This document shows positions 1 through 51,600 of a stretch of DNA of 64,000 bases, in pieces. Position 1 is the first letter of the stretch, and each line of letters begins with the position of its first letter. This stretch comes from Certhia americana (Eukaryota > Chordata > Aves > Passeriformes > Certhiidae): the NCBI GenBank assembly GCA_018697195.1, contig CM031858.1:107079277-107143276 (forward strand), given 5' to 3'. The notes beneath the pieces were generated by a model. The model made no database searches, was not told the DNA's origin, and worked only from the letters and a program-made list of their open reading frames with translations. Made by a program: the position numbers and the translations under genes.

Positions 1-475
1 TATTAATTTAGAATAGTTTTTCATTATAGTCATAAGGGTGAATGGAAAAAAACCCTGTCCTAATGCCAAAAAAAATAGTAAAAAAAAAAAAAAAAAAGGT
101 TGTATTTGCATGTGTGGTGATATTTTTTGGATGCTCTAAAACTTGACTACATGAGAAGTCTGTCCTTCTTCATGTTGGACAGACAGCTTCTGGATGCACA
201 AGCAGCTGCTGTGGCAGTAAAGCTAAACAATATTCATTGGAAGAATAAGCAGCGGTACTTGCTTTATGAGACAGCCTATTCAAGCCTCCAACCATGAGCA
301 GTCCAGATGCTGAGCTTGAAATCTCCTCCCATCCTTCAAAGGACTATAACCAGGAGCATGCAAACATACAGAAATTACCTTAAAGATCATCTTTTGCAAC
401 CCTTCACCACAAGGGCTTGGACAGTTTCCACACCCTCTGGAGGCAAAGACCCAACTCAAGAGACCCAATGCCAAA
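1..475. other. Unique non-coding flank with an A-rich run
   Basis: AT-rich unique sequence with a homopolymeric A run at about 80-97. Short open frames here run into the neighbouring simple repeat and show no recognisable protein. No promoter or RNA gene is evident. Confidence 0.6.
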
Positions 476-836
476 CCTTCCCTTCCCTTCCCTTCCCTTC
501 CCTTCCCTTCCCTTCCCTTCCCTTCCCTTCCCTTCCCTTCCCTTCCCTTCCCTTCCCTTCCCTTCCCTTCCCTTCCCTTCCCTGAAACTTCCCTTCCCTG
601 AAACTTCCCTTCCCTGAAACTTCCCTNNNNNNNNNNNNNNNNNNNNNNNNNNNNNNNNNNNNNNNNNNNNNNNNNNNNNNNNNNNNNNNNNNNNNNNNNN
701 NNNNNNNNNNNNNNNNNNNNNNNNNNCTTCCCTGAAACTTCCCTGAAACTTCCCTGAAACTTCCCTGAAACTTCCCTTCCCTGAAACTTCCCTTCCCTGA
801 AACTTCCCTGAAACTTCCCTGAAACTTCCCTTCCCC
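476..836. repeat. Pyrimidine-rich satellite array 1: (CCTTC)n then TGAAACTTCCC units
   Basis: The array has two parts. Positions 476-582 are a perfect CCTTC pentanucleotide run of about 21 copies. From 583 the repeat switches to an 11-base unit, TGAAACTTCCC, or a 16-base form with one extra TTCCC. A 100-N gap at 627-726 interrupts it. Eight TTCCCTGAA junctions can be counted after the gap and three before it. One strand is almost pure pyrimidine in the pentanucleotide part, which gives mirror symmetry. The array ends in a short degenerate CCCCTACCC edge. True length is unknown because of the gap. The same design recurs at 40.5 kb. I know no named satellite family to assign it to. Confidence 0.95.
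627..726. other. Assembly gap, 100 N
   Basis: Exactly 100 N within the satellite. This is a common placeholder length for a gap of unknown size, so the array length here cannot be read from the coordinates. Confidence 0.98.
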
Positions 837-2616
837 CTACCCTGATGGCAGGTCAGAATTAGCAGCTTCACACCACTGAGCTCTCAACAAAACAAAGACA
901 GGGCCACATTTTGAGAAGTTTTGGATCTGCATGGATATGATCCCAAAATAGATGGGCTTCTGGTCCCAAATTTTGGCACAGCCTTTTGCAGTCTTACTGA
1001 ATTTGCAAAGAGGTGGACTAGGAGCCAAATCTCAGAGGCTGGGATTATTTTTTGTTTTTTTCAGGTCCATTTTTAGTGTAAGAGAAATTATATTATATGC
1101 TATGTTAAAATTGTGACATGGCGTTCTTATCAAGTTATAATATAATGCTATTAATTCCTCACACCCTCTGCAAGTTGCTGTGGCCACAACCCTAATTGTT
1201 TTTTCAAGTTCACAGCATTGTGGCCTCTGGCTCATTATAAAATTATATGTATAATCTCATGGGATGCAAAAGGAAAAGAAAAAGAAATGAAAATCTCTCT
1301 GTGGACCTTTTTGAGTTGTACAAGTCATGGCTTTAGACAGGGAGAAACATTCCAACAACAGAGATTGGCAAATATTAGAAAATTTGGCTATAGATTCTTG
1401 GAAGTTTCTCAGAAGCTTTTCCAAACCTCGTCTTTAGATTATCCAAGACACTACACAGATCTCTTGGGTTACAATTTCTGGTCTTTGCTGACTCCAGCAA
1501 GCACAGACTTTTGTGAAAATTGAAATATAAAATAAACAACTACCTACACCAGGAATGCAAATCTCTTCCCTTTCTTAAATTTTGACTGACTAAATCTTTT
1601 GAGCCTCAGAAAAGTGTATGCATATGTTCACTTGGAGAGCCGATTTGGGTCATATCCTAATATTTAGTTGAACCAATTTAAACAGCCATTCTGATCCAGT
1701 AATTTGCTTTTAATGGATATGACAGGAAGAGCCAGGCACCTTATTGCATTTAGCCTTCTCTGAGTAGCCTAGACTTTGTTTTTCCTCCTGTATATCCCTC
1801 CAGCAGAACTCCCAGTAGCAAAGTACCACTTTGGTCCATGCCAGGTGACAATGGCTCTTGGGCTGGCAGTGCTGAACCATGTTGCACCCTAGTTTCAAAT
1901 GTTTCCATGCCACTGCCCTGGTAGCGGATGACCCATGTAGTGCTTGTTGGCAGATTTACCCACCTGCCAGAATGGGTCTCCATGCTGTCACTGCTCCCTT
2001 CCCATGCCTGCCCTGGTGTTTCCACCATCATGTTATCCAGTGAAAACAGAAGTCATCAGGGTGCCCTTGGGATTGCAGTGTCCCCTAGAGCACGTTTACT
2101 ATGGCTGGAGCAGAAATGTTCCCCATACCCTGTGCTAAACACCCTTGCACAAAATGGTGCTCGTTTCTGGAGAAGAGTTTGGCAGCTAATGGATTCAGTG
2201 TGTGGATTAGAGGCACTAAAAATGGTTTGGAAATTCTCCTAAGCATCTCCAGGTGTTCAATACATTAAAATAGCTGTAAAATAATAAAATGGAGGGAGAA
2301 GCTGTCAGTCATCTTGAACAACATTGTGGACACTTCTGACAGTCAGTGCTATCTCATTCAGAGAGAGCTCCTTTTATTTTGTATTCCCAAGAAAGGTTTT
2401 GTTGGGTCTATTAGTCTTTGGGCAACCCAGAGAAGGGATGTGACATGAATTTAATGTGCTCCTTCTTAAATCCTCACTGTTCTGATAATCACAAAGAGTT
2501 AAAGTAACGCAGCAGAAGGTTTCTCTGGGCCTCTAGGAGGTTCAGCAGATTACTAATACACTACAGGCAGTTTTAATGACAGAGCTTCCAGCTCAAATCT
2601 GGCCTTTTTATTATGA
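837..2616. other. Unique non-coding sequence, nothing recognised
   Basis: Ordinary AT-rich unique sequence. Short open frames of up to about 100 codons occur on both strands, none with a recognisable domain or convincing splice context. No repeat family was recognised. Confidence 0.55.
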
Positions 2617-2700
2617 TGAAGGGCCTGGCCCCAAGTGGTACAGAACACCTGCAGCTCTCATTGAATACAATGGGATCTGATGCTGATGAAAGGGACCATT
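2617..2700. repeat. Eroded palindromic amniote repeat fragment
   Basis: The stretch contains a GGGCCTGGCCCCAAG segment followed by CCTGCAGCTCTCATTGAATA and CAATGGGATCTGATG. This resembles the old interspersed repeats of birds, turtles and crocodilians built around a near-palindromic CCCATTGAAGTCAATGGG core. The match is by eye and strongly diverged, so boundaries and family name are uncertain. Confidence 0.45.
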
Positions 2701-5700
2701 TTCAAACTTCCTTAGAAGTAGGCGCTCCCCAGATGTTATGCAAAAAGCCCTGCAGAACAGGCATCAAGTGCTGTGATACTAGGCAGGCCAGCCACTCTTT
2801 TCCTCAGCTGGATAAACCCAGGAGTTTGTGTGAGTGGTTTATGTGATCAGATCTCCTATCCAGGAGCAAGCAAATTAAGGTCAGTGCTGACTGAATTAAT
2901 GGAAGTATTAGACATTCCTTGAGAAGAACTGGACATTCGAACAAAGAGGATTTTCTCTCAGTGGGAAGGTGCCTGATGACATCTGAGTTTTGTCACTGAC
3001 AATAGTCATAGCAGGACTTTGAATATAATCCAGAAGAAAACTTGTGAGAAACTGGGAAGCATGTGTATGAGGAAAGACAAAGGGATGTGCACAACTTCTT
3101 ATGTGTAATTTCAAAGCAGAGCTTCTACAGAGACTTATTTTATCTGAACTAGTTCATGTCTCTAAATTCCACTGTACACCCACGGTCAAGAGGAAACAAT
3201 GCTTTCCACACCGTGCTATAACACTTTTGAAATTCCCCTTCTTTGCAACTCCCCATGAATCCTTTGGTTAATGCAGATGGAGATCCTGAGCCCTGTGTGG
3301 TACTGGTGCCTCTGGGACAGACCACTGCTGTAGGCATGGGTGGGATTGGTGCTGGCAATTATGGGTGAAATTCTGTAAAACAGTTGATGAAGTGCAAGGC
3401 TGCACCATTTATTTGGGTTCTTTATTGAATTTTATTTAGTCATATTTTCTATGCCTTTTAGCCATTTCTCCCTCCCTTCCTCATTTAATATATCTACTTA
3501 TTATATAGAGAGCTGGTTCTAATTAAAGTCAATCAAAAATAAAACAATACACATAAATTCAAATATATTGTATACTTGATTAGCCATGGCTGGGCAATAA
3601 TATACAAGGGAAAATCTACATTCCTACTCCTCTCAGCTGGGGATAAGATCCAGAATCATATTACCAATATAAACAGCATAAAGCAGTCTGCTTTATTAAT
3701 ACCTAATATATCAGATATCACACATTCATTGCAAAAGGCAAAAGAATAAAAGCATGCCTGCATTCTGACATTGGCACAGATATTAAATAACATGTGTCCT
3801 GTTCTGGATTTTCCTTTCTTTGTTCAGGGTTACAGGAGAAGAAAGGCATAAATACAATAATAGTAAAAAAAAAAAAAAACAACCAAAAAAACCAAAAAAC
3901 CCCAAAAAAGTTCTGTGGCAGTTATGTGGTGGTGGCAACATTGGCCCATTGTATGTAGTGGGCAAACATAAAAATGCAACAAACCTCTCAAATAATATCC
4001 ATGTATCGGGCCAATTCCCAGCCACCACCAGCTGTCCAAGCACTGTGGATTTGCTGTGGCAGTGCAGCATAGCTGGAGGAGGGAAGCAGTATACAAGGAC
4101 TTGGGCAAGTGATTTGTACAGCTCAGGAATGTCACAGAAGTGCTGGGTGTTGTCGGTTTATTTTTCTGCTCTTGGGTCCTCGTAGGACTGGTTTATTCTT
4201 TTCACAGGGCTGTTGTAGCTCACATCCCCAGTGCTGAGGGACTACTGTCAGGAAGAGAAAAGCTGAAGACTTAGTATTCCCTAGTGATGTTTCCTTTCTG
4301 GTATTCTCCCTCTATTCCCTAATCCCTTCCTTCACCATCATCCTGAGGGTGGAGGAGGAGGCAAGGTCCTGAAAAGGGAATGCAGAGGCAGTGCTAGATA
4401 AATGCTGCCAGATAAACCCCTCTCTGTCAAAGTTATTTCCCTGGACAGTTTCTTTGTGTCTGTGTAGCTGGCATAAAGTGGCCAAAGCATACAACTGCCT
4501 CTCATCAGAGTGATTGTGTGTACAGTGTGGGTATGTGAGTATAGAAATTAATAAGGTTGGACTCTCTCTCTCTTACTGCGATTTAGGTTTTCTCCAAATA
4601 TGAAACCCAGTAGCTGGGATTCACTGTATGGAAATAAAACTGTGCACTTTAAAAAACAGTGAAGTGAAACTTCCACAGTAGCTTTGATATGGCTGGTTCT
4701 TTTTTAAGCCACTTGGACTTGGCATTGCTTCCTGACAGTCTGCCAGCCTTGGATGCTGTTGTTTTTATCCATGCTGGAGAATGAGACAGCTTGCTGATGG
4801 CTTTCTGAGTATGGTGTTTGTATGGGTTACCCAGCATCATCCTGAACTCAACCTTTCACATGTGTGCGGGCAGCAGCAGTACAAGGCTGAGCCATGCACA
4901 AGCATGTAAAAGCCTCTATTTCCTTTCTGCTGAAAGTAACAGTCCCTCAGATGGGGGTTATGATATTACTGCCTTCATTCCCTTCTCACCACCACTCTCT
5001 GAAGCCAGTGACCTAGAGCAATATTGTACCCGTTTCTCTCTCCTCACAGCCAATCTGACTCTATACCTCAGCCATCTACCCCTGCCCCTTGTGCACCTGC
5101 CTTGACACTTCAGCCATCCGCCCCTGACACACAGCAAGGCTCTAGGAGCTGACGAAGTTACCACCAGACAACTGATTACCTGCTAATCTGCTGCTTGGCA
5201 GCAGCTGGTTGTGTGAAAGCTCTTATCCTGCAGCTCAACTTTTTCACAGAGGGAGGTACGGCTGAACACGAACTCCTGTACAGAGGCAATTACACAAGCT
5301 ACAGGGTTACTGCCTTGATATAGGCAGTTGAAGACTGCTGCCTCCAAGTATCATTTGAAGTATTTCACACACCAGCAGTGGTGCACATATCTCAGCCTGG
5401 TTTGGTGGACTGGGCATTCATGAACCTGTCAGGTTCACTGAGGTCTGCTCTGCGCTGATGTGTGTGTGTGTGTCTGTGTACAGTCAGATTGTTTTGCTTC
5501 CCATTTGTAAGCTTGTTGAAGAAGATTGCTTTCTGCGGCATTTATTGGGATCTTGCATAATGGGCTGCTTGCCTTGGTGGAGCTGTGAGGTACCAACAAT
5601 ACTGGGGATCCATTGCATGCATCCAAAGAAAATCAAGACATTTCCTTGATTGCATTTGCTTGACTGATGTTTTGGAGTGTGGCACATGGCATTGGGTTTG

Positions 5701-7908
5701 TTGATTAAGTATTATGGTAAGCCAGAAAGTGATTTGCTGTGACATAATAAGATGTGACTGGTGTGTCCTGATGTGTTACAAACTGAGCTGTTGCAGAGGG
5801 ATTCACAGTCAGACCCACATGAAGGTAAAACCTAAAGCACTTTTTCTAACACCCAGTTCTCAGATATTTGACTTGGACAATTACAGATTTGCCACCAACG
5901 CTCTGCTGTCCTCAGTCACCACACTAAATCTTCCTAATTGGCAAATACATTAGTGAGAACTGACATCACCATGTTAGTCACTGCGCAAACATGGAGGTTG
6001 GCGGAGAGGTACAATCGTTCAGGGTTGTCCATAATTAATCACAGGCAGGTAATTCAGAAAGGCTATGGGAACAGTCTCCACATTCACTTACTAACGCTTT
6101 ATGATCCAAAACAGAATCCAGAAGTTATTCCAAGACAGGTGGTCATAAAATCTTGAAAACTGGTACTGAGTGTTGCTTTTGTTGTGCCCTACATAAATCT
6201 GTCATATTTTGGCTAAATTATATGCTGTTTAAAGTCAGAATGTATAGTAAAAACAACCTGTGTTGCGTTTGGAAGAACCTTGGCTGCTGAAACCTCTGAG
6301 TGTTTGCAGGATGCTCTGTGCTGCAGAAGATGAAGCCTCGAAGGAGCTGAGCTTCCCCCACAAGGCAGTCCAGATGGGGCACTGCAGAAGACCTTATGGC
6401 TATATGCAGCCATCTGTGATCAAACAACAAGCAACACAAGAGCTTTATGAACAAGGGCATGTCCACCCTGTACTTGAGCTGAAGGGAAAGCACTGAGACA
6501 GCTCAGCTCTTTGTAACCCACCCTTGGTCTCATGTAGTGCCTGTTCCACAGCTGATTGTGTGGCATGGGCAGACCCAGAGAGGCCAATCAATGCCATATG
6601 GCACCAGGAGTCAAAGGCAACAACAAAAATAGCTTCCATGCAAAAAGGAAAAAAAAAAAAAAAAAGGCAGTGCAAGTCCTGTAAGCATTAAAGTGCTTTG
6701 GGAATATAGAATACAATTGGAGAAGGTTTAAAGAGTGTGTCTCTCTGTTTCTGCAAGTGGTGGGGGCAATAACAAGGCAGCCTTTTTTTCTAACAGTAAC
6801 TGCTGTGTGTGCCAGAGCAAGGGCTGTTCATGAAGCTGTATTTTAGAAATTTGAGGAGTTTCTGTACTTCATCTAAGAATGAAACACAGGAGAGGAATGT
6901 TATTAAACAAAATGAAAAGGAAGGAAAAAAAAATCACAGGGGTTTTTGTGGCTGGTCTCAGGATGAAGACTAGGTTTTACAGTTCTGGAGGCTACCTGAG
7001 ATCTGATAATACTGTGACTGTGATCAAAACAAACTGGAGGTGATTACTGGCAGATTTCAAATTAATCCTTTAAGAAAACATTAGAATGCATCACAGCATA
7101 GCTTAGAGTGGTTGGACTCTCCTATGGCTAGCTAGATATGATACAAAGAAACTCAATATTACTATAAAACTGTAACTGGAGGCCAGAAAAGTCCAGAAAA
7201 GAGTCACAGGATGTTGCCCTTGCTGGGCTAATAGCACACACTCATCTAAGGACCATCAGGTGGGAGAAGGTGCAAGAAATCCCTTGAAATTATGTCAGTT
7301 TGCCAGCTTTTCAGGCAGCAGGACATTATTTCCTTCAGAGGAGGAAGCAGACAGTGACTTAGTCAAATTAACACTTTGTAGGAGCAGGAGATAGTGTTGC
7401 ATTAGATCATTGGACTATAGTTTAGAAAGAAAATGTGTCCTTAACTCCACATGAGTTGAAGAGCATTAAGTCCAAGTTACCACAAAGGGATTTCTTCACA
7501 CTGCAGAAAGAGCTGAGGCACTAGAGAAAAGACAGCTAAGACCCCAAAATCCTCATGGTGAACATATCCCATGGTATTTGTGGAAAAGATTCCACTTTCA
7601 TTGCTGCCAGAGAAAAGGCAATTCTAGAACACAAAAGTGTTCTAGAACCTCTCAGTGGCTGAGAGAAACCTGCTCCTCCTTGACTTTCAAGCTCCTTTGA
7701 TGTGAGCATTTTGTGCCTATCCAACATTCTGGGTACATTTTGCTTCTAAACTTCCCCTGAGTCTTTACTTCTCAGACACTTGTTTAAGTCGAATAGGCAG
7801 ACGTATTTCCTGTAGGTATCTGTTTCCTTTTCTCCTTCTCCTTCCATCTCATTCAGTGTTGGATCATTTGTTCCAGTGTTTCAGGTACTATTCTCCATGA
7901 GAAAATCA
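2701..7908. other. Unique non-coding sequence with simple repeats
   Basis: Mostly unique sequence. A-rich stretches lie at 3865-3908 (A run followed by CCAAAAAA-type motifs) and 6649-6665, and a short GT run lies at about 5458-5478. Open frames up to about 120 codons are present but low complexity or unrecognisable. No gene can be supported. Confidence 0.55.
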
Positions 7909-8932
7909 GTCACAGAATGCGTGAGGCTGGAAAGGACTGCAATAGGTCATCTCATCCAACTGCCTTCTCAAGCAGGGTCATCCTAAAGCACATTGCACAG
8001 AATTGCATCCAGGTGGTTCTTGAATATCTCCAGTGAGAGAGACTCCACAAGTGTCTGTGAAATCTGTTCCAGTGCAGGGTCAACCACATAGTAAGGATGT
8101 TCTTCTTGCGTTCAGGTGGAATTTTCTGTGCACTAGTTGCCACTAGTCGCCTCTAGTCCTATTGCTTGTCACCACTGAGGACAGCCTGGCTCCATCCTCT
8201 TGACACCCTCCCTTTAGATATTTGATGTACACATTTGATGAAGCCCCCTCTCAGTGATCTCTTCTCAATGCTGAACAGGTCCAAGTCTCAGCCAATGTCA
8301 TAAGAGAGATGCTGCTGTCCCTTAATTGTCTTTGTTTCCCTGTGCTGGACCCACTCTGGGTCTCTCCTATACTGGGGATCCCAGAACTGGACACAGAAAT
8401 TGTGATGTGACCTTATTAGGGCTGAGGGGCAGGGTCACCTCCCTTGACCTGATGGCAGTACTGTTCCTAATGTACCCCAGGATACAACTGACCTTCATGG
8501 CCACTAGGGCACTTCTGGCTCATGGATGACTTGTTGTTCAGCAGGACCCCCCAGGTCATTTTCCACAGAGCTGCTTTCCAGCACCTCAGTCCCCAGCCTG
8601 TGCTGCTGCATGAGGTTGTTCTTCCCCAGGTATTTGCCTTTGCTGAACTTTACAAGGTTTGTCTCTGTCCTTCTCTCCAGCCTGTTGAGGTCCTTCTGAG
8701 GGTCTGCACAGCCTGCTGGGCTATCTGCCACTCCTTCCAGTTTTGTGTCACCAGGGAACTTGCTGAGGAAACATCTGTGCCTTCATCTAAGTCATTGATG
8801 GTTAAGTTGAACAATACTGGACCCAGTATTGAACTCTGGGGATACCACCAATGCCAGGTCCCCAACTAGACCCTGTGCCACTGATTATGACCCTCTGGGA
8901 TCTGCAGTTCAGCCAGTTCTCATTGTGACATC
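7909..8932 (-). mobile_element. CR1 LINE, 5'-truncated, with decayed ORF2 reverse transcriptase
   Basis: A non-LTR retrotransposon of the Chicken Repeat 1 family, inserted so that its 3' end is at the left. The left edge has the CR1 terminus (CACAGAATG, GAGGCTGGAAAGGAC). Minus-strand translation gives reverse-transcriptase pieces in order: NWLNCRSQRVIISG near 8900, then SILGPVLFNLTINDLDEG near 8800-8850, then GCADPQKDLNRLE and LLESSS-like blocks near 8550-8720, then the C-terminal HLNMRK-like segment near 8100. The pieces lie in different frames, so several frameshifts have occurred. The conserved FADD catalytic box reads FPGD in its local frame, so one catalytic aspartate is lost. The 5' part of the element is absent. 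It cannot be active. Confidence 0.93.
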
Positions 8933-11274
8933 CCTCTGAATGGTTTTCCACAGTAGGGCAGTAAGTCAGTGTTAGGTCCCCATTCTCACCCTTCCACCCC
9001 AAAGCCATCTTTGCATACACCTCCAGCTCTGGCTCTGCTTATCCACTCCCCTGAGGTTTCTTTGCTTGGAAATTCAGACCTCTCAGTGGCTTGATTCCCA
9101 CTGAGAAGAGCATCATAGCTGTTTCTACCACTAGAAACATAGCTGTTTCTGCTATTTTCTGTTGCTCACTATCCCCAGATTGCAGCAGGGTTTACTTGAG
9201 CAGACACTGCAGCAGGTATCCAGAAGCACTTCCCAGGCAGTAACAGCCAGGGATCCTGTGCCTATGTGCTTTCACTTGTATTTTACTATTTACGAGAAAG
9301 AAAACTAAGGAAGAGAGTGGTTTCTGAAGAAAGACAGGGTAAGGGAGGAAACACAAACTGGTGGAAAAAGAGAAACTGCTTTTTACTTGCATTGTGGGTA
9401 ACAAGAAATATGTGGATGGAGCTGGATGGAAGGAATCTAAGTTGGTGTGGTTTCCCAGTTTTAAAGTTGAAACCAATGCCTGGCTGCTTGAAGGTGGGAG
9501 GCAACAGATGGGGCAGGAGAATTGTTTTGTGGCTGTCACTATGACTGGGGACAAAATCAGTAAGACTACAATATTCTTGGAACTGTTAAAAAAGATCAAA
9601 TACAAAATAAAGAGTTCTTCCTTTTTCATTCTCTTACATTCCTTGATTTACTTCATACTGCAAATTCTCACAGAACACTAGATGAAGAAAACACTCTTTT
9701 CTCCACACATTGTCCACTAGTTCATCACCCTGGGCCACATGAAATGGCTTCAAACAACTCTTCAAAAAAAGTCAAGGTGAAATACCTACATCTTGGTCTT
9801 TTGCATGTGTTTGTATGTGTAAAATGCAGTAGCAACCAGCTTTGAGAACAAAGGGAGTAAGACACTAGGGTGGACTCAGTGGGGGAAGTTGGAGGGGAGG
9901 GCAGAGCAGCGCAGGGCCAGGGAAGAGCTCCCACAAATCAGGACGTGGTATTTCCTCCACTGTTATATAATATTTATATTGCAGTAGTGCCAAGAGGCTG
10001 CAGTCAGGATCAGAGCTATCTGACTATATGAACTCCAGAGAAATGTACCAGGACACAAGCCTTGCCCCAAGGAGAAGATAATCTAAAAGGAAAAAAACCA
10101 CAAACCACACTAATATGAGGAGGGGTGCATGCGTGGGTGGAGCTGATGAGAGGGAGGGACAGAGACAGCCATCTTAGAGTGGGAGCTGCATCTCTCTCCC
10201 AGTTATAAGGGGCTGGCTACCCACAGAGTATCCAAGGTGAGGTTCCTTCTGCAGGCAGAATGATTAGCCCCACAGGGAATTCCCACAATAAGTGGTTATT
10301 CATGAAGAAAGGTGCTTGAAGAGAAGGGTTGAATGCTTAAGAGTTTCGAGAAAAAGGTCTTCGGTAAAAACTAGTGGATTTGAAGACTGACTATGGATTT
10401 TGATGGTAAAGAAGGGAGACTTTTTCCATTTGTTTTCTCCTGGATAATATCTGGGCTGTACTAGTCCAGACCCTGGTTAAATCTGTAATAAAAATATACG
10501 CTTTATGCTGAGGAGTTATAAGTAAGAGTTTCAAGCCCCAGCTGGCCTTCAAGAAAAGCTCCGTAGAGCATAAGCTCTGAATATACTTTTGCTTTTTCGG
10601 TATCAAATGGAGCCACAATGCTCTTGATGTGTGCTGTGCAGCAATGCAAGGTCTGCCTGTCAGGGTTTGTAGAGGAATGTGACACAGTACACAATGCTCA
10701 CATGAGGGCTTTAGTCCTCTGAGCCCTCCAAAAACAAGTGAAAATCTCCCACTGAAAGCAACGTGGTGAAACAAAAGCAGAGAGAAGCCAGCAGCATGGG
10801 GGCATTAGGCTGAACTGACAGCACTTACCAGCTTAATTTATCCATAATACCTGTTGATGAAATGAGTAATTGCACAGGCAAGTGTTTCCATAGCTATGGA
10901 AATGAAAGACTGACCAGAGGAATTTGGTTGGAGTTGGGCTGGAAAACTTGTAGCTGCCCTTGGCTAATTTTGAAAAGATCTCCAAAATACCATGTGCTCT
11001 AGGGTGGGAACTAGTGAAGAAATGGGCTTGAGGAGGCTTGATTTTGATGAAGCCAGTGTACTTCTCCAGTTGGTGGCATTTAGGGGCCATGGCTGCAATT
11101 GCAACTTGTGTTGACAGGGATGATACACTGCAGGGACTAAAAGGAAACCTTTTGAACCTCAGTTGGTGGCTATTTGCCACACACTTCATCTGTAATTGTC
11201 TCTAATCCCAGGCACTTTACCTGTCTGTTGGTGAAACATGGTCACATCCATTCTAAACAAGTAGAAATGCGAAA
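8933..11274. other. Unique non-coding sequence, nothing recognised
   Basis: No repeat family or gene recognised. A minor feature is a short inverted repeat, GTTTCTACCACTAGAAAC, at 9121-9138. The open frames on both strands at 9192-9681 (up to 145 codons) overlap each other and have no known motif. They are likely chance. Confidence 0.5.
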
Positions 11275-38567: not shown

Positions 38568-40520
38568 TTCCATATGTTTGGCTTTCCCTGGCTATGGCAT
38601 CAGTTTCCAACTGGAAAATTTGCCTGGGCAGGGAAAAAAATAGAAAAAGAAAAAAGACACTGGAGTTTTGTCAAAAAACTTTGGACATCTGGAAATCAGG
38701 CCTTCACAGTGAGGACATGACCACTGGACATACATGAAAAACACAGCAGTAAAAATTCTCTCCCAAAAATATCCATCTCCCTATACTTTCCCTCAGTGGT
38801 GCACAACCACCTTCTTTTGTTTTGAAAGTCTCAGAGCCTGAGTAAAATCAGCATAACAAAGCAGATTTTGTGAAACATTTGGAGATCTGATGATGCTAAG
38901 TGGTAGACAACAGATCAGCATTTATTCAACAGGCATGCATTTGAAACACTGTAATTAAAGTATAAGAATAAAAAATAACCCCACTGCTTTAGCCTTAACT
39001 TTCTGTCCTCTTATCTCTCACCTTCTCTCTCCTGGGGGTATTAGCCTAGGCAGGGGTTTCCAAGTGGGATCTGAGGAAGGCTGTTCACCTCAGTAAATCA
39101 GGTTAGGAATGGTGTTCCCTTATAAGTGCTCAGAGGCAGCATTGCAGCCCAGAGGGTTCAAACATTGGGCTGCCATGTTTGCCAACAGCAAAGCTATCTA
39201 ACACTTCATATTTAGGCTGGCTTTTTGCATTTATTAGCAGCATGTGGTACAATCAGTAATTAATTTGGTGATCCTTGGAGCCAGTGCCTGTTATCAGAGT
39301 TTCCTTTTATGCAACAGAGATAAGCATGCAGTAGTTTTTGAGACATATTGATGTGCATTTACCCTTCTGTGTTCCTCTCCTCCGCACAGGAAGGATTCCC
39401 CACCAAAGGAAGAACCTTTGGGAGTGAGGTTTCAATGCAGCCAGAAGATAAAGGCTAGGGCAGAAAGAGAGATGCAAAAATACCTTCTGCTCCAAACAGC
39501 TTTGGCATTTCATTCTGCTAAGGAAGCAGCAGGTTTGGGCATGAGGCCTGCAGAGGCAACTACCTGTTGCCTCTAGTAGATAATGCTGGTAATAACCGAG
39601 AAGAAAGCTTTCTGAGCCCCTATCACATTTGTGGCCCTAAAGGGAAGAAGTAATCTGATTGGTTACTTGTAATTTATTCTTTAAACGTAAAAGAACTAGA
39701 AAGGGAGGAAACATAAATACTTTTAATAATCAAAGAAAAGACTGAAGTAAGTAGAGTTCACAACCTCAATAACTCATTTAAGATGCATAAATGCCTCAAA
39801 TTTTCATTAATTAGTGAATATGTGTTGTTTTCTTGGAGTACAAGAAAGAGATTTTTGAACACCAGTGAACCAGACAAATGAAAACTAAAACATACATATT
39901 AGGAATCATGCTCCAAAGGACTCTTTCAGAGATTATGGCAGGAAGCACCTTATTTCAGTTTTTCCATTATTTCACGCTTAGAAATGACTACTTTGAGTGT
40001 TTGCAACTGATTGAAATGTTTATCAAAGGCTGAAGGGTAACCACAGAGAATAAAACCCCCTTCTCTGCAGTGCTGTTTTCTGACCTGCATGGAGCATGCT
40101 GGTAGTTTTGGACATTTCAGATTTGACAGGTGACCAAAGCACAAAAACTGAATTCAGCCAAGTCTTAAAACTAAGTATTTGCCTTTTTGTGTTACTGAAT
40201 AGGAAACAAAGTGTTCACCATAGCTGTCATGGTACTTAGCCGAGCACTACCTGTTGAGGTTAAAGATTGCATGAGACACAAAAAAAGAATAACTTTGGTA
40301 TATGCGTTGTCTCTAAAGGACAGTTACACGGTTTTAGTGGGATGGAAAGAAGCCTCTATTATTGCTGCAAATGATGTGCCTGTTTCATAGGAAATAAGGA
40401 ACATCAAGTGACAATGTATCAAAGAAGCAGTCTGGAGAAATCAAATTTCTCTTTTACTGAAGACCTTTAGGAACATTTCTCTGTTTCCATGATGACAAAG
40501 ATACAATGGGCATGCACACC
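38568..40520. other. Unique non-coding sequence with a short hairpin
   Basis: A perfect inverted repeat, AGAGGCAAC/GTTGCCTCT with a 5-base loop, lies at 39,552-39,574. No gene or interspersed repeat recognised. Confidence 0.5.
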
Positions 40521-42494
40521 CCTTCCCTTCCCTTCCCTTCCCTTCCCTTCCCTTCCCTTCCCTTCCCTTCCCTTCCCTTCCCTTCCCTTCCCTTCCCTTC
40601 CCTTCCCTTCCTTACCTTCATTCCTTCCCTTCCTTCCCCCCTTCCCTTCCCTTCCTTCCCTCCTTCTTCCCTTACCTTCCCTTCCCTTTCCCTTCCCTTG
40701 CCTCCTTCCTTCACTTCCCTTCCCTTCCCTTCCCTTCCTTCCTTCCGTTCCTCCCTCCCTCCCTTCCTTCCCTTCCCTTCCCTTCCTTCCCTTCCCTTCC
40801 TTCCTCTCCCTGAAACTTCACCTTCTGAAACTTCCACCTTTCCTGAAATTCCTTCCTTCCCTTCCTTCCTGAAAACTTCGATCTTCCATGAAACTTACCT
40901 TCCCTGAAACTTCCCTCCTGAAACTCCCTTCCTGTGCAACTTCCCTGAAACTACCTGAACACTCCTTCCCTTCCCTTCCCTGAAACTTCCCTTCCCTTCC
41001 ATTCCCTGAAAACTCCCTTCCATTCATTCCTGAAACTCCCTTCCCTGTGAAATACTTCTTCCCTTCTTCCTTCCCTGTCCCTCACCTTCCCTTCCATCCC
41101 TCCTGCCTTCCCTCCCTTACCTTCCCTTCCCTTCCTCCATTCTCTTCCCTTCACTTCCCTTCCTTCCCTTCCATTCCCTTCCTTCCCTTCCCTTCCCTCC
41201 CTTCCCTCCCTTCTTCCCTTCCCTTCTTCCTTCCTCCTTCCCTTCCTTCCCGCCCCTCCCTTCCCTTCCCTTCCCTTCACTTCCATTCCCTTCCCTTCCT
41301 GAAACTCCCTTCCTGAAAAATTCCCTGAAACACTTCCCTGAAACTTCCTGAAATAACTTCCCTGAAACTTCCCGGAAACTTCCCTGAAACTTCCCTGAAA
41401 CTTCCTGAAAATTTCCCTTCCACGAAGTCCATTCCCTGAAATCTTCCCTTCCCTGAAACTTCCCTCCCTGAAACATTCCTGAAAACTTCCCTGAATCCGC
41501 TGAAATTCCCTGAAAATCCTGAAACTTCCTGAAACTCCTCGAAACTTCCTGAAACTTCCCTGAAACTTCCCTGAAACTCCCTGATAACTCCCTTCCCTGA
41601 AACTTCCTTCCCGGAAACTTCCTGAAAAAACTCGCCTGAACTCCTGAAACTTCCCTGATTCCCTGAAAACTCCCTTCCCTGAAACTTCCCTTCCTGAACT
41701 TCCCTCCCCTGAAACTGCCTGAAACTTCCTGAAAACTTCCCTGAAACTTCCCTTCCCTGAAACTTCCCTTCACCTTGAAAGTCCCTTCTGAAACTTCCGG
41801 AAACACTTCCTGAAATTCCATTCCTGAAATTCCTCCTGAAACCTTCCCGAAACTCACCGAAACTTCCCTTCCCGTTGGAAACTTCCCTTCCCTTCCCTGA
41901 AACTTCCTGAAAACTTTACCTTCCCTGAAATCCCTGCAAACTGCCCTGAAACTTCCCTGAAACTTCCGGAAACTTCCTTCCCTGAAACTTCCTCCTGAAA
42001 TTCCCTGAAAACTCCTGAAAGCTTCCTCCCTGAAACTTCCCCTCCCTGAATATTCCTTCCTTCCCTTCCGGAAACTTTAACTTCTGAAACTTCCCTGAAA
42101 CTTCCCGAAACTGCCCTGAAACTTACTGAAAGTCCTTCCCTGAAACTTCCTTCCTGAAACTTCCTGAAAACTTCCGTGAAAACTTCCGTTTCCCTTACCT
42201 CCCTCCTCTTCCCTGAAACTTCCCTGAAACTTCCCTGAACTTTCACCCTCGAAACTCCTGAAATCCCCTCATCCTGAACCTTCCTGAACTCCCTGAAACT
42301 TCCTTCCCTGAAATTCCCTGAAAACTCCTGAAACTTCCTTCTGGAAACTCCCTTCCCTGACAATTCCTGAAACTCCCTGAAACTCCCTTCCCCCTTCCCT
42401 CTCCGTTCCCTTCTCCCCCCCCGGCCCCCCCCCCCCATTCTCTTCTCTTTCCTGTCCTTCCTTCTCCCTTCTCGTCTTCTCTTTCCTTCTTTCC
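40521..42494. repeat. Pyrimidine-rich satellite array 2, mostly low-accuracy sequence
   Basis: Begins with 90 bases of perfect CCTTC repeats (40,521-40,610), then becomes irregular TTCCC/CCTTC sequence with scattered single-base changes, and from about 41,300 changes to TGAAACTTCCC-type units. This is the same order and orientation as array 1. After 40,611 the periodicity is broken by very frequent one-base insertions and deletions, unlike the clean units at 45,613-45,770. This suggests unpolished long-read sequence. Long open frames here, rich in G/E/K/R/F/S or P/S/L/F, are repeat artefacts. Confidence 0.93.
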
Positions 42495-44782
42495 TTTATA
42501 AAAGACGTAAGTGAAATCTGTCCAGGGAAAGGCACAGCAGGAGATTTAGTATGAGACCATTCTACCTCAGTAACATGAGTCCCTGGAGCAATGGGAAAAT
42601 CTTGAGAAAAGGGAGAGTATTAGTTACTATCAGGAAAAGTGGATTCCTAAGGCTTGGACTGCCTCCAGCAGTTGGAATGTGTCTTCGAGGCAAGGATGGG
42701 AACACCAAACATTGAGCTCACTTGAATTGGACGGGGACAGTGTGTTGGCAAGTGTACTGGGGGAAGAGATCCTGCTCTGAAGGGGCGAATGGTCTCTGGA
42801 CACCGGATATCTATGACTTCGTTAAAATCCAGTTGTGAAGAATGTGAGGAATAGAAAATACTTAGGAATCACCCAGGGACAAGCGAATCTCAAGACATAA
42901 CACTTGCACCAACTGCCGCAGAAGTATTCACATGTGAGGGAGCCAGGTTGGGCCTACAAGTTGGGATGATGGACTTCCGCATCCCAGGAGGAGGATGCAG
43001 TAAAGGCCTGCGCTCAGTCCCACATGCAGGGCAGGCAGGGCACTGGGGGGGGGGAACAGGGGAGAAGGGAACAAAGCTCCTGGACTTCTGCTGGCAGGGA
43101 ACAGGAAACGATAAGCCCGTTGAAACAGTTCAGAAATAAAAGAAACCTGAGCCTGCTGTGTCTGCCTCTCTTCTTTACATCCATGATCAGGTGTCCTTCT
43201 CCCTCTATTCCTGCACCAAAGCACTTGCATGTCCTGTGTCTGCTTTATGCTGCTTTCTGATCCCCTCACAGTGCAGAGATGTCAAGAAAATGCATATTGA
43301 AACTCGCCAATGTCACTGCACCAAACAAAACCCACTGGTGTTTACCAGGGAGAGGGCTGCCACAAGATGCCCCTATATTCTTCAGCTGGGGCTTGTCTGG
43401 TGTTTGTGGTGGGGCAAACCCAGAGCTGCTGAGGGCAGAATGGGGAACTCACGTGCTGGTTAAACATAGCCCTTGATTCCTTTTTTTGTCCCTCCGCCAT
43501 ATGGATGTAATTATATTCACAAGCGTTTTTTTTTTTTTTTTTTTTCCTCCAGTTATAATATGTTTTTATCATTTGTCCAGTCATGGAGCTTTCATGGACA
43601 AAACAATTATGATCAAATGTCTGAGAACGTCTCCAATGGGCCTTTTCCTGAAACATGTACAGACAAAGGAAATTATTCCTTATTGAAAGAAATCACTTCA
43701 AAGTGCCCAGACAGAATCGCTCCAGCTCAGGTTCCTTTCTGGTCACATGCTTGACAAGAGCTCTCACGAAAACCATGCTCCTTGAGCCGGTTTGAATTTC
43801 CAGCAACACGGGGCACAGGGCAATGGGAACTAACAGGCCCACGCACCTCTTTCTCCGTACCTATACCTTCCCGCACTCAGAGTCATTCCTCCGCACAGTG
43901 TTGTTGCCTCTCCAGTTCAGTAAAATTCTCTGTGATGTTGTCTCTAACTTTCGTGTGCTTGGGCAGCTCGGTTATCAGCCGTTCTGGACACAGCTATGTC
44001 ATCCTTTCCTAATAACTCATGCTTCAGTCAAAAACTCTCCAGTTTAGTCATGATCTTTCCTATCACCATCTCTCGTGAAGGTGAGGGGAGGGCAGACAGT
44101 TCTCAGTGAGGATGAAAGGATTGAGGAATGATTTGCATGACAAACTGCTGGGGACCATATATTTCTGTGGTGTTGCACTTACAGAAAAAAAAATGCTGAA
44201 ACCATCCAATACCTGTGTGTTGGCCAGATCTTCAACACATGCCAAATTCTTCGCTTGTGGCAGCCTGGGCACAGTCCACATATATTTTAGTTGTGATCTC
44301 CTAGGTCAACTGTGATCTAGTTTTGCAGTCTCCTGAGATAGTGCCTCTTCCACATCCTGAATGTCATCTCAAACTATAAGGAGGCTGACTGATCCAGGAA
44401 AGGTCAGGTGGCAGTTCCTTATTGGATCTTTCTTTGTCCAAGAGAGTGTGGGTTATGGGCCCTCACACCAGGACCTCCTTTTGAGATGTTGGGGAGGATG
44501 TGTGAGGTTAATTATTCAGCAGAAGTAGGTAGAACCACAGGCAGGACTCTATTACTGGGTGAGAAGAGACCTGTGCCAAAGGAGGAAGTTATGCCGGTTA
44601 CACAATCTGATCTTCACAAGATAATCATGTGATGAGTTTTCTCCTTATGTGGATTTGCATTGGCATAACAAACTCCCATCTCCTTTCATTCAGAGCAGTA
44701 TTGACAACACAGCTGTGAATGCTGAATCTGCAGTTGACTTGTCCTGCTGACCAGATACCTGCTCTCAGCAAAGTCCATGTAC
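42495..44782. repeat. Copy A of a ~2.3-kb duplicated unique segment (probable assembly artefact)
   Basis: Starts TTTATAAAAGACGTAAGTG and can be followed in order and orientation against 45,842-48,139 to its last base, which abuts the N gap. Differences are mainly short insertions or deletions, often at homopolymers (for example GACGGGGACAGTG here against GACTGGACAGTG in copy B). Copy B is closer to the CR1 consensus in the CR1 segment. Copy A is therefore the less accurate version and probably a gap-fill overhang. No gene recognised in it. Confidence 0.9.
42605..42840 (+). mobile_element. CR1 3' fragment, copy A (error-containing duplicate)
   Basis: Same CR1 fragment as at 45,950-46,165, with extra bases such as CAGCAGTTGGAATGTGTCTTC in place of GCAGTGGAATTGTCTTCC. 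If copy A is an assembly artefact this is not a second insertion. Confidence 0.75.
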
Positions 44783-45612
44783 NNNNNNNNNNNNNNNNNN
44801 NNNNNNNNNNNNNNNNNNNNNNNNNNNNNNNNNNNNNNNNNNNNNNNNNNNNNNNNNNNNNNNNNNNNNNNNNNNNNNNNNNNNNNNNNNNNNNNNNNNN
44901 NNNNNNNNNNNNNNNNNNNNNNNNNNNNNNNNNNNNNNNNNNNNNNNNNNNNNNNNNNNNNNNNNNNNNNNNNNNNNNNNNNNNNNNNNNNNNNNNNNNN
45001 NNNNNNNNNNNNNNNNNNNNNNNNNNNNNNNNNNNNNNNNNNNNNNNNNNNNNNNNNNNNNNNNNNNNNNNNNNNNNNNNNNNNNNNNNNNNNNNNNNNN
45101 NNNNNNNNNNNNNNNNNNNNNNNNNNNNNNNNNNNNNNNNNNNNNNNNNNNNNNNNNNNNNNNNNNNNNNNNNNNNNNNNNNNNNNNNNNNNNNNNNNNN
45201 NNNNNNNNNNNNNNNNNNNNNNNNNNNNNNNNNNNNNNNNNNNNNNNNNNNNNNNNNNNNNNNNNNNNNNNNNNNNNNNNNNNNNNNNNNNNNNNNNNNN
45301 NNNNNNNNNNNNNNNNNNNNNNNNNNNNNNNNNNNNNNNNNNNNNNNNNNNNNNNNNNNNNNNNNNNNNNNNNNNNNNNNNNNNNNNNNNNNNNNNNNNN
45401 NNNNNNNNNNNNNNNNNNNNNNNNNNNNNNNNNNNNNNNNNNNNNNNNNNNNNNNNNNNNNNNNNNNNNNNNNNNNNNNNNNNNNNNNNNNNNNNNNNNN
45501 NNNNNNNNNNNNNNNNNNNNNNNNNNNNNNNNNNNNNNNNNNNNNNNNNNNNNNNNNNNNNNNNNNNNNNNNNNNNNNNNNNNNNNNNNNNNNNNNNNNN
45601 NNNNNNNNNNNN
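44783..45612. other. Assembly gap, 830 N
   Basis: 830 N between the end of copy A and clean satellite sequence. Frames drawn through it are meaningless. If the duplication is false, the gap does not correspond to a real interval. Confidence 0.98.
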
Positions 45613-45841
45613 CCTTCCCTGAACCTTCCCTGAACCTTCCCTGAAAATTCCCTTCCCTGAAACTTCCCTTCCCTGAAACTTCCCTGAAACTTCCCTTCCC
45701 TGAAACTTCCCTTCCCTGAAACTTCCCTGAAACTTCCCTGAAACTTCCCTTCCCCCTTCCCTTCTCCCTTCCCTTCTCCCTTCCCTTCTTCTCTTTCCTT
45801 TCCCTTCCCTTCTCCCTTCTCGTCTTCTCTTTCCTCTTTCC
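45613..45841. repeat. Right end of satellite array 2, clean sequence
   Basis: Regular TGAAACTTCCC and TGAAACTTCCCTTCCC units with ten TTCCCTGAA junctions, including variants TGAACC and TGAAAA, followed by a TTCCCTTCTCC-type edge that decays into the unique flank. The same edge occurs in noisy form at about 42,385-42,494, which ties the two copies together. Confidence 0.93.
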
Positions 45842-48139
45842 TTTATAAAAGACGTAAGTGAATCTGTCCAGGGAAAGGCACAGCAGGAGATTTAAGTATG
45901 AGACCATCTCCTCAGTAACATGAGTCCCTGGAGCAATGGGATAAATTTGAGAAAGAGAGTATTTAGGCTTAATATCAGGAAAATATTCCTAATGGCTTGG
46001 ACTGCCTCAGCAGTGGAATTGTCTTCCAGGCAAGGATGGAAACACCAACATTTGACTCACTTGAAATTGGACTGGACAGTGTGTTGGCAAGTGTACTGGG
46101 GGGAGAGATCCTGCTCTGAAGGGCGAATGGTCTCTTGGACACCGGATCTCTATGACTCTGTTAAATATTCCAGTGTGAAGAATGTGAGGAAAGAAAATAT
46201 TAGGAATCACCCAGGGACACAGCTAATCTCACAGACATAACACTTGCACCAACTGCAGCAGAAGTTATTCACATGTGAGGGAGCCAGGTTGGGCCCCAAG
46301 TGGGATGAGGGCTTCAGCATCCCAGAGGAGGATGCAGTAAAGGCCTGCTGCTCCATGTCCCACATGCAGGCAGCAGGGCACTGGGACACAGGGGAGAGGG
46401 AACAAATGCTCCTGGACTTCTGCTGGCAGGGAACAGGAACGATAAGCCCGTTGAAACAGTCAGAAAGAAAAGAAACCTGAGCCCTGGCTGTGTCTGCTAT
46501 CTCTTTACATCCATGATCAGGTGTCCCTTCTCCTCTCTGTCCTGACAAAGCACTTGCATGTCCTGTGTCTGTCTTTATTGCTGCTTTCTGATCCCCTCAC
46601 AGTGCAGAGATGTCAAGAAAATGCATATTTTGAAACTCCAAATGTCACTGCACCAAACAAAACCCACTGGTGTTTACCAGGGAGAGGGCTGCCTACAGAT
46701 GCCCCCATATTCTTTCAGCTGGGGCTTGTCTTGGTGTTTGTGGTGGGGCAAACCCAGAGCTGCTGAGGGCAGAATGGGACCCTCACTGTGGTTTCAACAT
46801 AGCCTTGATTCCTTTTTTTGTCCCTCCGCATATGGATGTAATATATATTCACAAGGCTTTTTTTTTTTTTTTTCCCTACCATTTATAATATTTTTTTATT
46901 CATTTCCAGTCATGGAGCTTTTCTGGACAAAACAATTATGATCCAAATGTCCTGAGAACCGTCTCCAATGAGGCCTTTTTCCTGAACATGTACAGACAAA
47001 GGAAATTATTTCCTTATTGAAAGAAATCACTTCAAAGTGCCCAGACCAGACCCCGCTCCAGCTCAGGTTTCCTTTCTGTGTCACAGCTTGGACAAGAGCT
47101 CTCACGGAAAACCATGCTCCTTGAGCCTGGTTTGAATTTAAGCAACACTGGGCACAGGGCAATGGGAACTCACAACAGCCCACTCACCTCTTTTCTCCGT
47201 ACCTCTACCTTCCCCCTCAGTATGTCCTTCCTCCTGCACAGTGTTTGTTGCCTCTCCAGTGTCAGTAAAATTCTCTGTGATGTGCCTCTTAACTTTCTGT
47301 GCTCTGGGCAGCTCTGTTTATCAGCCGTTCTGACACAGCTATGTCAATCCTTTCCTAAAACTCAGCTTCAGTCAAAAACTCTCCCCAGTTAGTCATGATC
47401 TTCCTATCACCATCTCTTGTGAAGGTGAGGTGGAGGGCAACAGTTCTCGTGAGGATGAAATGGATTGAGAATGATTTTGCATGACAACTGCTGGGGATCC
47501 AATATCTTTCTGTTGGTGTTGCTTACAGAAACAATAATGCCTGGAAACCATCCAATACCTGTGTGTTGGCCCATCTTCAACACATGCCAAATTCTTCTCT
47601 TGTGGGACAGCCTGGGCACAGTCCACATATATTTATGTGTGATCTCCTAGTCAAACTGTGATCTATTTTTGCCAGTCTCCTGAGCATAGTGCCTCTTTCC
47701 ACATCCTGAATGTCACCTCAAACTATAAGGAGGCTGACTGCTCCAGGAAAGGTCAGGTGGCAGTGCCTTTATGCATCTTTCTTTCTGTCCACGCAGAGTG
47801 TGGGTCATGGCCCTCACACCAGGACCTCCCTTTTTGAGATGTTGGGAGGAGTGTGAGGTTCATTATTTCAGCAGAAGTAGGTAAGAACCACAGCATGGAT
47901 CTCTTACTTGTGGGAGAAGAGACCTTGTGTCCAAAGAGACATTTTATGCCTGTTACACATCTGTTCTTCACCAAGATAATCATTGATGAGGTTTCTTCCT
48001 TCTGTGGATTTGGCATTGCATAACAACTCCCATCTCCTTTCCATTCAGAGCAGTATTGACAACACAGCTGTGACTGCTGAACTCTGCAGTTGACTTGTCC
48101 TGCTGCCAGATACCCTGCTCTCAGCAATGTCCAAGGTAC
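45842..48139. repeat. Copy B of the ~2.3-kb duplicated segment (probable true locus)
   Basis: The more regular version of the segment. It holds a CR1 fragment at its left, a poly(T) run near 46,858-46,875, and otherwise unique sequence. It continues without a break into unique sequence after 48,139, as expected of the genuine flank. Short frames such as those at 46,521-46,941 are open in both copies but contain no recognised domain. Confidence 0.88.
45950..46165 (+). mobile_element. CR1 LINE 3' fragment
   Basis: AATATCAGGAAAATATTCCT, GCAGTGGAATTGTCTTCC, ATGGAAACACCAACATTTGA, GACTGGACAGTG and GATCCTGCTCTGAAGGGCGA follow the order of the CR1 3' region in sense orientation, ending near a CTCTATGACTCTG block. 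It is an older, more diverged CR1 lineage than the one at 16.9 kb. Confidence 0.8.
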
Positions 48140-48582
48140 ATTGAAAGAGGACAATAAAATTTCCCCTGTCTCTCAAATGGCCTCTACTTACTGGTAAAAT
48201 ATGGTTTTCAGTATTCAAACAAAGAATTTGGGACACTCCTGAGCTCCATCATTAGCCTAATTTTGTTTTTGCTACTAAAACTTCTCCAACCTGGTCCCAT
48301 GGCTACCTCCTCTGACCTAGTTAAACACACCTGACTAGGATCTGTCATTGCTTTACAACTCAGAGTAGAGCAGAGATACCAGGTTTCAACCTTCAGACCA
48401 CACCTGGAGCTAATGGTCAACACAATGTCCTACCTGTCCATGCTGAGGAGCTGTGTGCCACCTCATGGCACCCAGCACTGTGTCAACAATCTCCAGAGAT
48501 CAGCACCTACACACAGACTGGAAGGTCACTGAGACCCGTCTCTCCTTCCCTGCATATCAGACCCAGAGTAACATGACCCCTT
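48140..48582. other. Unique non-coding sequence, nothing recognised
   Basis: Continues copy B into single-copy sequence. No repeat or gene recognised. Confidence 0.5.
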
Positions 48583-48630
48583 CCAGCTCCAGCTCCAGCT
48601 CCAGCTCCAGCTCCTGCTCCAGCTCCAGCT
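48583..48630. repeat. CCAGCT hexanucleotide repeat
   Basis: About eight tandem CCAGCT/CAGCTC units with one CTGCTC variant. It encodes a poly-serine run within the plus-strand frame 48,453-48,896 and a Gly-Ala run on the minus strand. A six-base period keeps frames open, so these frames are not evidence of a gene. Confidence 0.93.
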
Positions 48631-51600
48631 CTGGCCCTGCCTCTGTTCCCAAAGCCCTGCTTTATGCTTCTAAGGCAATGCAAAGAACATGCTCCTACTT
48701 TGGTGTAAATGCCCTGTTTAAAGGAAGACTTCCAGTTCTTCTGAGGATCCCCAACAGAACAGCTGGCACTCCAGCACTTACTCCTGGTTATAATACTTTT
48801 CGATATTATGTCCATCAAATCCCTCAAAAACCCCTGGAAAAACACCCAGAGGAGCTGCCCCAGCCTGATATTTTGCCAGTGCTCTGCTCTTTGTGAAGTA
48901 GACAGGCAGGTGAAATTCAAGGTTATGGTCACTACAGCCAAAGGCCAGGACATTTCAGAACAGCCTCGCTACATCCAATCTGCTGTATGAACTATTCTTA
49001 GCTGGAAGCTGGAGCCGAATGCTCACTGGGCACTCCAGGTTCACACCTCTGGAATACGCCCCTGACAGAAATATGCTTCAGCGTGAACTTGGCCGCATTT
49101 AGAAGAAACTGCAAGATACACCTCTTTCCCAGACCTTTCCATCTGTTTAAACTGTGAAATCCTGGGTTCCTTGCTGTCTGGTCAGATTAAAAGCTGCTGG
49201 CAGTGGGGGAGCATGACAGTTCATTTCTCTTACTTGGAATGATAATTACTCAATGTAATCCCCATAAAACAAACTCATAATCTTCAACGATGAGTGTGTG
49301 TTAAGTGCTCATAGTAACTGAAATAAATAAGAAGAGGTCATTAATAATAAACCATGGTCTGGATTACAGCAGTCAACAGTGCACAGAACAGCAGAGCTGG
49401 AGTTGATAAAGGAAAGTGGATCATAGCTCTCCACACTCGGCAGGCTTGATGTTGTAAGGTTGGAGATACTGTCTGCGTGTCAGCTGGGGATCACCAGAAT
49501 TCAGCTGTGATTTAATCATAACCTGTACATTGCCTGAGAAGAAAGAGGTGAAATAAAGACTGGTTATGGTAGATGCAGAATGCTCTGAATTCTCCTGCAC
49601 AAGCCAACTAAATCTTGCTGGCTGCTTCACAGTCCACTTGAATCCACTAGGATTACTACCAGGTGTACTGCTGGGAGAGGTCTTTCTTTATCTATGCAGC
49701 ACAATTTCAGATTCCTCCTTCTTAGGAGATGCCAAATGGATCTAGCTGTTCTGCTCTAGACATTTCTCTGTCTCCTCTGGTTCACTTGGGCCATTATCTG
49801 GACTTTCAGGAAAATATTTTGGTCCTCCAGGTTAGTGTGTCTTCCTAGACACCAAAGTAAATTTTGTGCATGCACAGGATGAACTCAATGCTCCTCATTG
49901 TGCAAAAACTCTAACTAGGTTTGTGAGCTCTTCCCTAACTCAATTCTCAGTGGCCATTTCCTCACATCATGCCAAGATAACACGAGGGTGAAGACCAAGA
50001 AGACACAGGAATGGACACCTCTGTGCGAAGCTGACATAGTTTTGCTATACAGCTGGCTGGGAGCTGGATTGATGTTCCTGGTGTACTGAATAGAACTGAA
50101 ATTTGGAGTTCTTGCTGAAATTAAAAATAAGTGGCTACATTTGTATAACTTATATGTGAGGGATTGGAATACATAGCAAAGTTCAACTATTACTTTCCTG
50201 TTTATATTCATGGATTGCTGTTTTTCTAGGCTCAGCTCTGGTTTTGCTGATGAGCTAAAATATAACCTCCTTAAACCCCAGTGGAGCAACATTTAGTAAG
50301 TTCTTTCTTTAAATAATATTTCAGCCAGGGGATTAACTCCTATTTGCACATACAGCTAACCTGGAGGGAAGGCTCGGTGAGCAAAAAACCCTGGAGGGAG
50401 AGGACATATTTGCAGCAGCAATGACTGTTTCCACTCCTGCTGAGGTGGAGGAAAATCCTTGCCAGCTGCAATGGGAGGCAGAACAGGCCCATCTCTAAAT
50501 CATGTAAAAAATTATCTGAGAGCATTTTCAATAAATTACTGCTGATAGGAGGAGGAATGTTCAAAATGACTGTGTCTGTAAGGGTACTGCCCCCACAGAG
50601 GACTGCTCTGCAGCTCCCCAAGTTATGCTCCAAGCATGTCCATGCCTCAGGCACACCCTCCCTGCCTTCAGAATCACGGAAAGTGTGATGAGAGCATGAT
50701 GCTTTGATGTCCCCTGGAATAATGTCCCCTGCTTGCCCACTCACGTGCTGGCAGGTTTTTTGCAGACCTGCAGTGGGCTACTATTCTTCCCTCACCAGTA
50801 GTCTGGATTGTGTACCCCAGAGAAGGCATTGCTCATACAAAGAAGCTGAAAACTAGACCTGTGACTTGTCAGTCTGCAGGGTCCCAAGGGAACTTAGGGG
50901 ACCTGGGGTGCAAGTAGTCCTGCTCTTGCACTTGGGAAACCTCACAGGACTGGACTCTGTCTAGCCCAAACAAGGATTTCAGCTCTTCCCCTGAAAAGAG
51001 CAGTATCATAAGCATATGGTTAATGACTCATCCCAAGTGGAAAAACAGTGTTTGTTATATTTTATGAAAATTTTATACATCTAAGGTACTGTACATCTGT
51101 TGCTATTTAGGCTGACATGTATGTAGAGATTGGCAGAACAAGTTCTCTGTAGGGATGACTGAACTCCAAACCAAACCACAGAACTTTCAAACACTCAGTC
51201 TGCTTCTTGAAGGGGAATGAAGGGAAAAAAAAAAGAAGAGAGAATGTTTTTCTGCTCTGTTGAAATGCTGCCTGACTGAGCAATATGCAAGGAAGACACT
51301 CTTTGGTTCTGTCTAATCCACAATAGAAGAGGGGCTTATTTATGGAGAAGAGCCTTTCTTCACAACACTGCAAATCGCAAGCAAACTTGTCTCTGTGCCA
51401 AAACTTTCCCCAGGTTACTCATGGAAGGGTCAGAAAGTTCAACTCCTTGTCTGACTCCTGCTCCTCCTCCCTGTTTCCTTTCTTGCAAAACCCTCTCTTA
51501 GACCTGCTCCTGTCTCCCTCCTCTCTGGCAGCAAGCCTTTCTCATGGTGAGGCTAAGGGTTCTTCTGGATTTGTTCATACATTTTTCTTGCAGCAGCAGC

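Follow-up and report, generated by a model that had tools for sequence, protein, structure and literature searches.

Does Certhia americana carry a tandem duplication of about 2.3 kb at this locus, or has one sequence been assembled twice? The window analysed (64,000 nucleotides of contig CM031858.1, assembly GCA_018697195.1) contains two closely matching stretches on either side of a run of Ns, each preceded by a pyrimidine array built as a chain of CCCTT and CCCTGAAACTT. The original prediction attributed this arrangement to a long-read gap fill that was extended from the left contig across the array and never merged.

Two copies on either side of a gap

The features on which the argument depends are as follows; positions are those of the window.

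40520..40611, + strand: clean CCCTT array, 0 edits in 92 bases, read as the end of the original left contig
40612..42494, + strand: array part of the putative inserted long-read sequence, whose start is uncertain and may lie some bases leftward
42273..42494, + strand: noisy repeat of the array edge that the right contig carries, BLAST pairing 42,273 with 45,618
42495..44782, + strand: copy A, 2,288 bases, read as an unpolished, false copy of the right flank
44783..45612, no strand: N run of 830, probably what is left of the original gap
45613..45841, + strand: edge of the array on the original right contig, with 3 edits among the 141 bases scored (45,613-45,753)
45842..48139, + strand: copy B, 2,298 bases, read as the genuine right flank
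476..831, + strand: comparison gap in an array of the same kind, 100 Ns (627-726), both edges clean

Copies A and B open with the same motif, at 42,495 and 45,842 respectively, and could be aligned end to end with 2,142 of 2,390 columns identical (89.6%), so the coordinates first proposed for a repeat in the same order proved exact. BLAST (E cut 1e-10) pairs 42,273-44,777 with 45,618-48,133 at 2,804 bits. This match also covers about 220 bp of satellite to the left of the copies, placing the satellite edge within the duplication as had been claimed, and the alignment likewise finds the poly(T) run and the terminal GTCCA..GTAC in both copies. The final base of copy A (44,782) directly adjoins the 830 Ns, which form one of only two N runs in the window (627-726, 100 Ns; 44,783-45,612, 830 Ns); the prediction that copy A stops exactly at the gap is thus correct. 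Copy B, said to continue into unique DNA, is followed by 1,000 bases for which no second copy was found in the 264 kb compared, made up of 20 nearby 10-kb loci and the remainder of the window, and no third copy of the non-array 2.3 kb was found in the same 264 kb. With arrays masked, the low-complexity filter on and E<=1e-4, A and B are the only repeat pair in the window. A search of the 1.07-Gb assembly with the terminal 483 bp of copy A gave at least two matches, copy A itself and copy B, genome match counts for repeats being lower bounds.

Both copies had also been described as carrying a CR1 fragment, a label for which we found no support and which we dropped: over the 264 kb compared, copy B had no nucleotide match and copy A a single 18-base match (E 0.04), the six stop-masked frames of copy B had no Pfam match at E<=0.001, and no Rfam family reached its gathering score in the window. 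A scattered CR1 piece may nevertheless lie elsewhere in the genome, beyond the 264 kb compared. Searching the three stop-masked forward frames of 1-9,602 against Pfam returned nothing at E<=1e-4. To the right of copy B, at a distance of 443 bases, lies a TCCAGC hexamer repeat (48,582-48,631; 8.3 copies, 95% match).

Noise in copy A and in the array

The alignment of A and B contains 174 indel events, 161 of them of 1 bp (93%), against 54 mismatches (11 transitions and 43 transversions), as expected from the early description of the differences as mainly short indels. Relative to copy B, copy A shows 80 insertion events and 94 deletion events; the longest indel, 7 bp, falls in a G run, the simulated maximum being 5. 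Identity remained at 89.6% under each of six gap-cost settings, with 54-72 mismatches and 158-178 indel events, and the differences are evenly spread, at 15-32 per 200 columns in full bins. About two thirds of natural mutations are expected to be transitions. The observed 11 of 54 departs strongly from this expectation (binomial p 4e-12) and also lies below the one third of uniform random errors (p 0.044), transversions being somewhat in excess; C>A mismatches numbered 15 vs 5 for G>T (p 0.041). We counted these two departures, and the length of the 7-bp indel, against the gap-fill reading.

Natural divergence was simulated in forty runs that assumed 9% substitutions, a transition fraction of 2/3 and indels at about 11%. 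Mismatches ranged over 151-212, indel events over 34-68 and the share of 1-bp indels over 40-71%; none of the 40 reached the observed mismatches, indel events or 1-bp share. Aligning the copies and classifying their differences, the check proposed along with the original prediction, came out in its favour. Forty read-error runs, with rates set to the observed values, gave 42-72 mismatches, 128-175 indel events and 89-98% 1-bp indels, a range that includes the observed 54, 174 and 93%; since these rates were fitted to the data, agreement in the totals is by construction, and the one informative result is that the natural model fails. By their spectrum, the differences between A and B look like the errors of raw single-molecule reads.

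Array cleanness was scored as edit distance to the language {CCCTT, CCCTGAAACTT}*. To the right of the clean left edge, 40,612-42,388 required 277 edits in 1,777 bases, at 11 to 23 per 100 bases, and a second alignment begun at 40,520 placed the first edit at 40,609; noise thus sets in at about 40,609-40,612 and continues through copy A to the Ns. The two edges of the comparison gap, by contrast, are free of edits over 151 and 105 bases. Because the A side is noisy whereas the three other gap edges have 0, 0 and 3 edits, the errors within the array are placed on the A side; for the non-array part, which has no third copy, an origin of the errors in copy A is argued from the spectrum together with the array. 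The two array edges are also in register: the noisy array has a single TGAACC variant unit, at 42,275, which lies opposite 45,620, and the second TGAACC of B (45,631) has a counterpart in A with bases missing, while B's third variant (45,642) was not seen at the corresponding place in A.

From these boundaries, we read about 40,612 to 44,782 as probably one insertion, overlapping the right contig from about 45,613 to 48,139. The inserted piece had been equated with copy A; copy A does belong to it, but the noise onset within the array places its start at about 40,612 instead of 42,495.

The comparison gap interrupts an array of the same CCCTT/CCCTGAAACTT kind at 476-843, of which 727-843 is 94% identical to 45,652-45,762 (BLAST), so such arrays recur and break the assembly at least twice in the window. 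Composition shifts along the main array (40,520-42,494; 45,613-45,841), from pure CCCTT at the left edge through a mixture of CCCTT and CCCTGAAACTT to units resembling CCCTTCTCCCTT where the array ends on the right, and at the comparison gap CCCTT also comes first, with mixed units after. The 200 kb of neighbouring DNA contain 14 N runs, most with ordinary flanks, some of which may be masks and not assembly gaps. One is a run of exactly 7,500 Ns (C2:107,232,248-107,239,747), and another begins exactly 10,000 bases after its start, a pattern suggestive of masking or of a tiling artefact. Some of the 830 Ns may likewise be a mask, though that run meets the last base of copy A on one side and the array on the other.

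Origin of the duplicated piece

We consider it very probable (about 0.96), on the strength of the sequence evidence, that a one-sided long-read extension from the left contig ran through the array into the right flank and was left unmerged. A single long read, inserted almost without correction, would have supplied both copy A and the noisy array before it; the read was anchored, on this view, in the left contig, and a gap filler joined it to that contig's end at about 40,611. The inserted piece would span the whole pyrimidine array (about 1.65 kb between clean edges) and 2.29 kb of the right flank. Its far end would not have been joined to the right contig, so that the left side alone was extended and 830 Ns remain; the true order would be left flank, array, copy B. 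The match between the copies, their error spectrum, the noise boundaries and the register can be taken as established from the alignments, and the error spectrum, the noise onset in the left array, the in-register right edge and the stop at the Ns all favour the gap-fill reading first proposed. An extension of this type should run from a former contig end as far as the remaining Ns; the piece does stop at Ns, and the noise onset points to 40,611 as the former contig end.

Fill and remaining Ns (40,612-45,612) together make 5,001 bases, a total that is approximate by the several bases of uncertainty in the fill start. The total is suggestive of a gap that first stood at about 5,000 Ns and that the extension shortened by its own length. 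With only about 1.65 kb of array between the contig edges in the inserted piece, a 5-kb gap estimate would have been too long.

The program would have been PBJelly-like and the reads PacBio continuous long reads or similar. Raw PacBio reads carry more insertions than deletions, and the 80 insertions against 94 deletions run counter to that excess. Nanopore reads have a transition bias, which the 11 transitions against 43 transversions misfit, and we set a nanopore origin aside, although the argument is weak.

Failures closely similar to the proposed unmerged extension are described in the passages of the literature cited here. PMC9635638 describes PBJelly reads that enter a gap but fall short of its far side, along with overfilled gaps, an inflated genome size and more duplicated genes; in a bird assembly, PMC7757076 describes 292 gaps extended at one end only, and long-read extension into an unbridged gap that shortens it. 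The present case is like these in that a long read extends a contig without bridging the gap, and unlike them in that the extension continues beyond the array and duplicates the far flank; a PBJelly-like program is here a deduction. PMC8848313 mentions overfilled gaps, which PMC4580222 attributes to structural variation between individuals; PMC9635638 used error-corrected reads, unlike the nearly uncorrected fill proposed here, and gives misjoined contigs as the cause. As the causes given in PMC9635638 and PMC4580222 differ from the proposed route, we counted them against our preferred explanation.

Homotype false duplications, as defined in the relevant passages of PMC8081667 and PMC9516828, are short, often lie at contig boundaries, carry sequencing-type errors in the second copy and have an assembly gap between false and true copy; PMC9516828 adds that false duplications are most often gap-separated and sometimes connected via incorrect gap filling. 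Here, too, 830 Ns lie between A and B, and one copy bears sequencing-type errors, as judged from the indel-dominated spectrum and the A-side array noise. The difference is that the false piece can here be traced to a start inside a satellite array, and that the case is known from its sequence alone.

Copy A could instead be a poorly polished contig end, with overlapping contigs left unmerged by the scaffolder and no gap filler involved, in keeping with the statement in PMC8081667 that homotype duplications are often at contig boundaries and about as long as a read. We consider this unlikely: a change of quality at about 40,611, inside the array and beside clean sequence, fits attachment to an existing contig, and the 5,001 bases of fill plus Ns come close to a rounded gap length.

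A true tandem duplication of the array edge and 2.3 kb, arising by exchange within the array and since diverged by about 10%, would account for the shared order and orientation and for the array before both copies, as unequal exchange predicts. It appears highly improbable, given a spectrum unlike that of natural mutation (ts/tv 11/43; 174 indels vs 54 mismatches) and mismatches, indel events and 1-bp share outside the range of all 40 natural-divergence runs, an array that is noisy on the A side and nearly clean at the B-side edge, and the exact coincidence of copy A's end with the Ns. Hardly more credible would be a genuine array-bounded tandem duplication covered at copy A by error-prone long reads alone, short reads dropping out there.

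Two haplotypes of one locus set in series would differ by allelic divergence, which is unlike a difference of about 10% made mostly of single-base indels. Such a heterotype false duplication, although PMC9516828 names this type as the chief source of false duplications in the assemblies it examined, also sits badly with the one-sided array noise, and we give it the least credence of all.

Excess length and its consequences

Under the unmerged-extension reading, the true locus would be shorter than assembled, as originally proposed, but the excess is not the 3.1 kb (3,118) of copy A plus the gap. Measured at 42,495/45,842 it is 3,347 bp, because the fill would also repeat the array edge of copy B (45,613-45,841); it is 3,345 at 42,273/45,618 and 3,357 at the right ends, the anchor sites differing because of indels.

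Taken together, the duplication is most likely a known kind of assembly error and not biology. Measuring, on both sides of a gap, how many edits separate the sequence from the repeat language located the start of the fill here and may be reusable as a diagnostic. The importance of the locus is one of quality control only: the 153.5-Mb contig would be too long by about 3.35 kb, and counts of repeats, indels and duplications would be misled by its stretch of about 4.2 kb that is unpolished.
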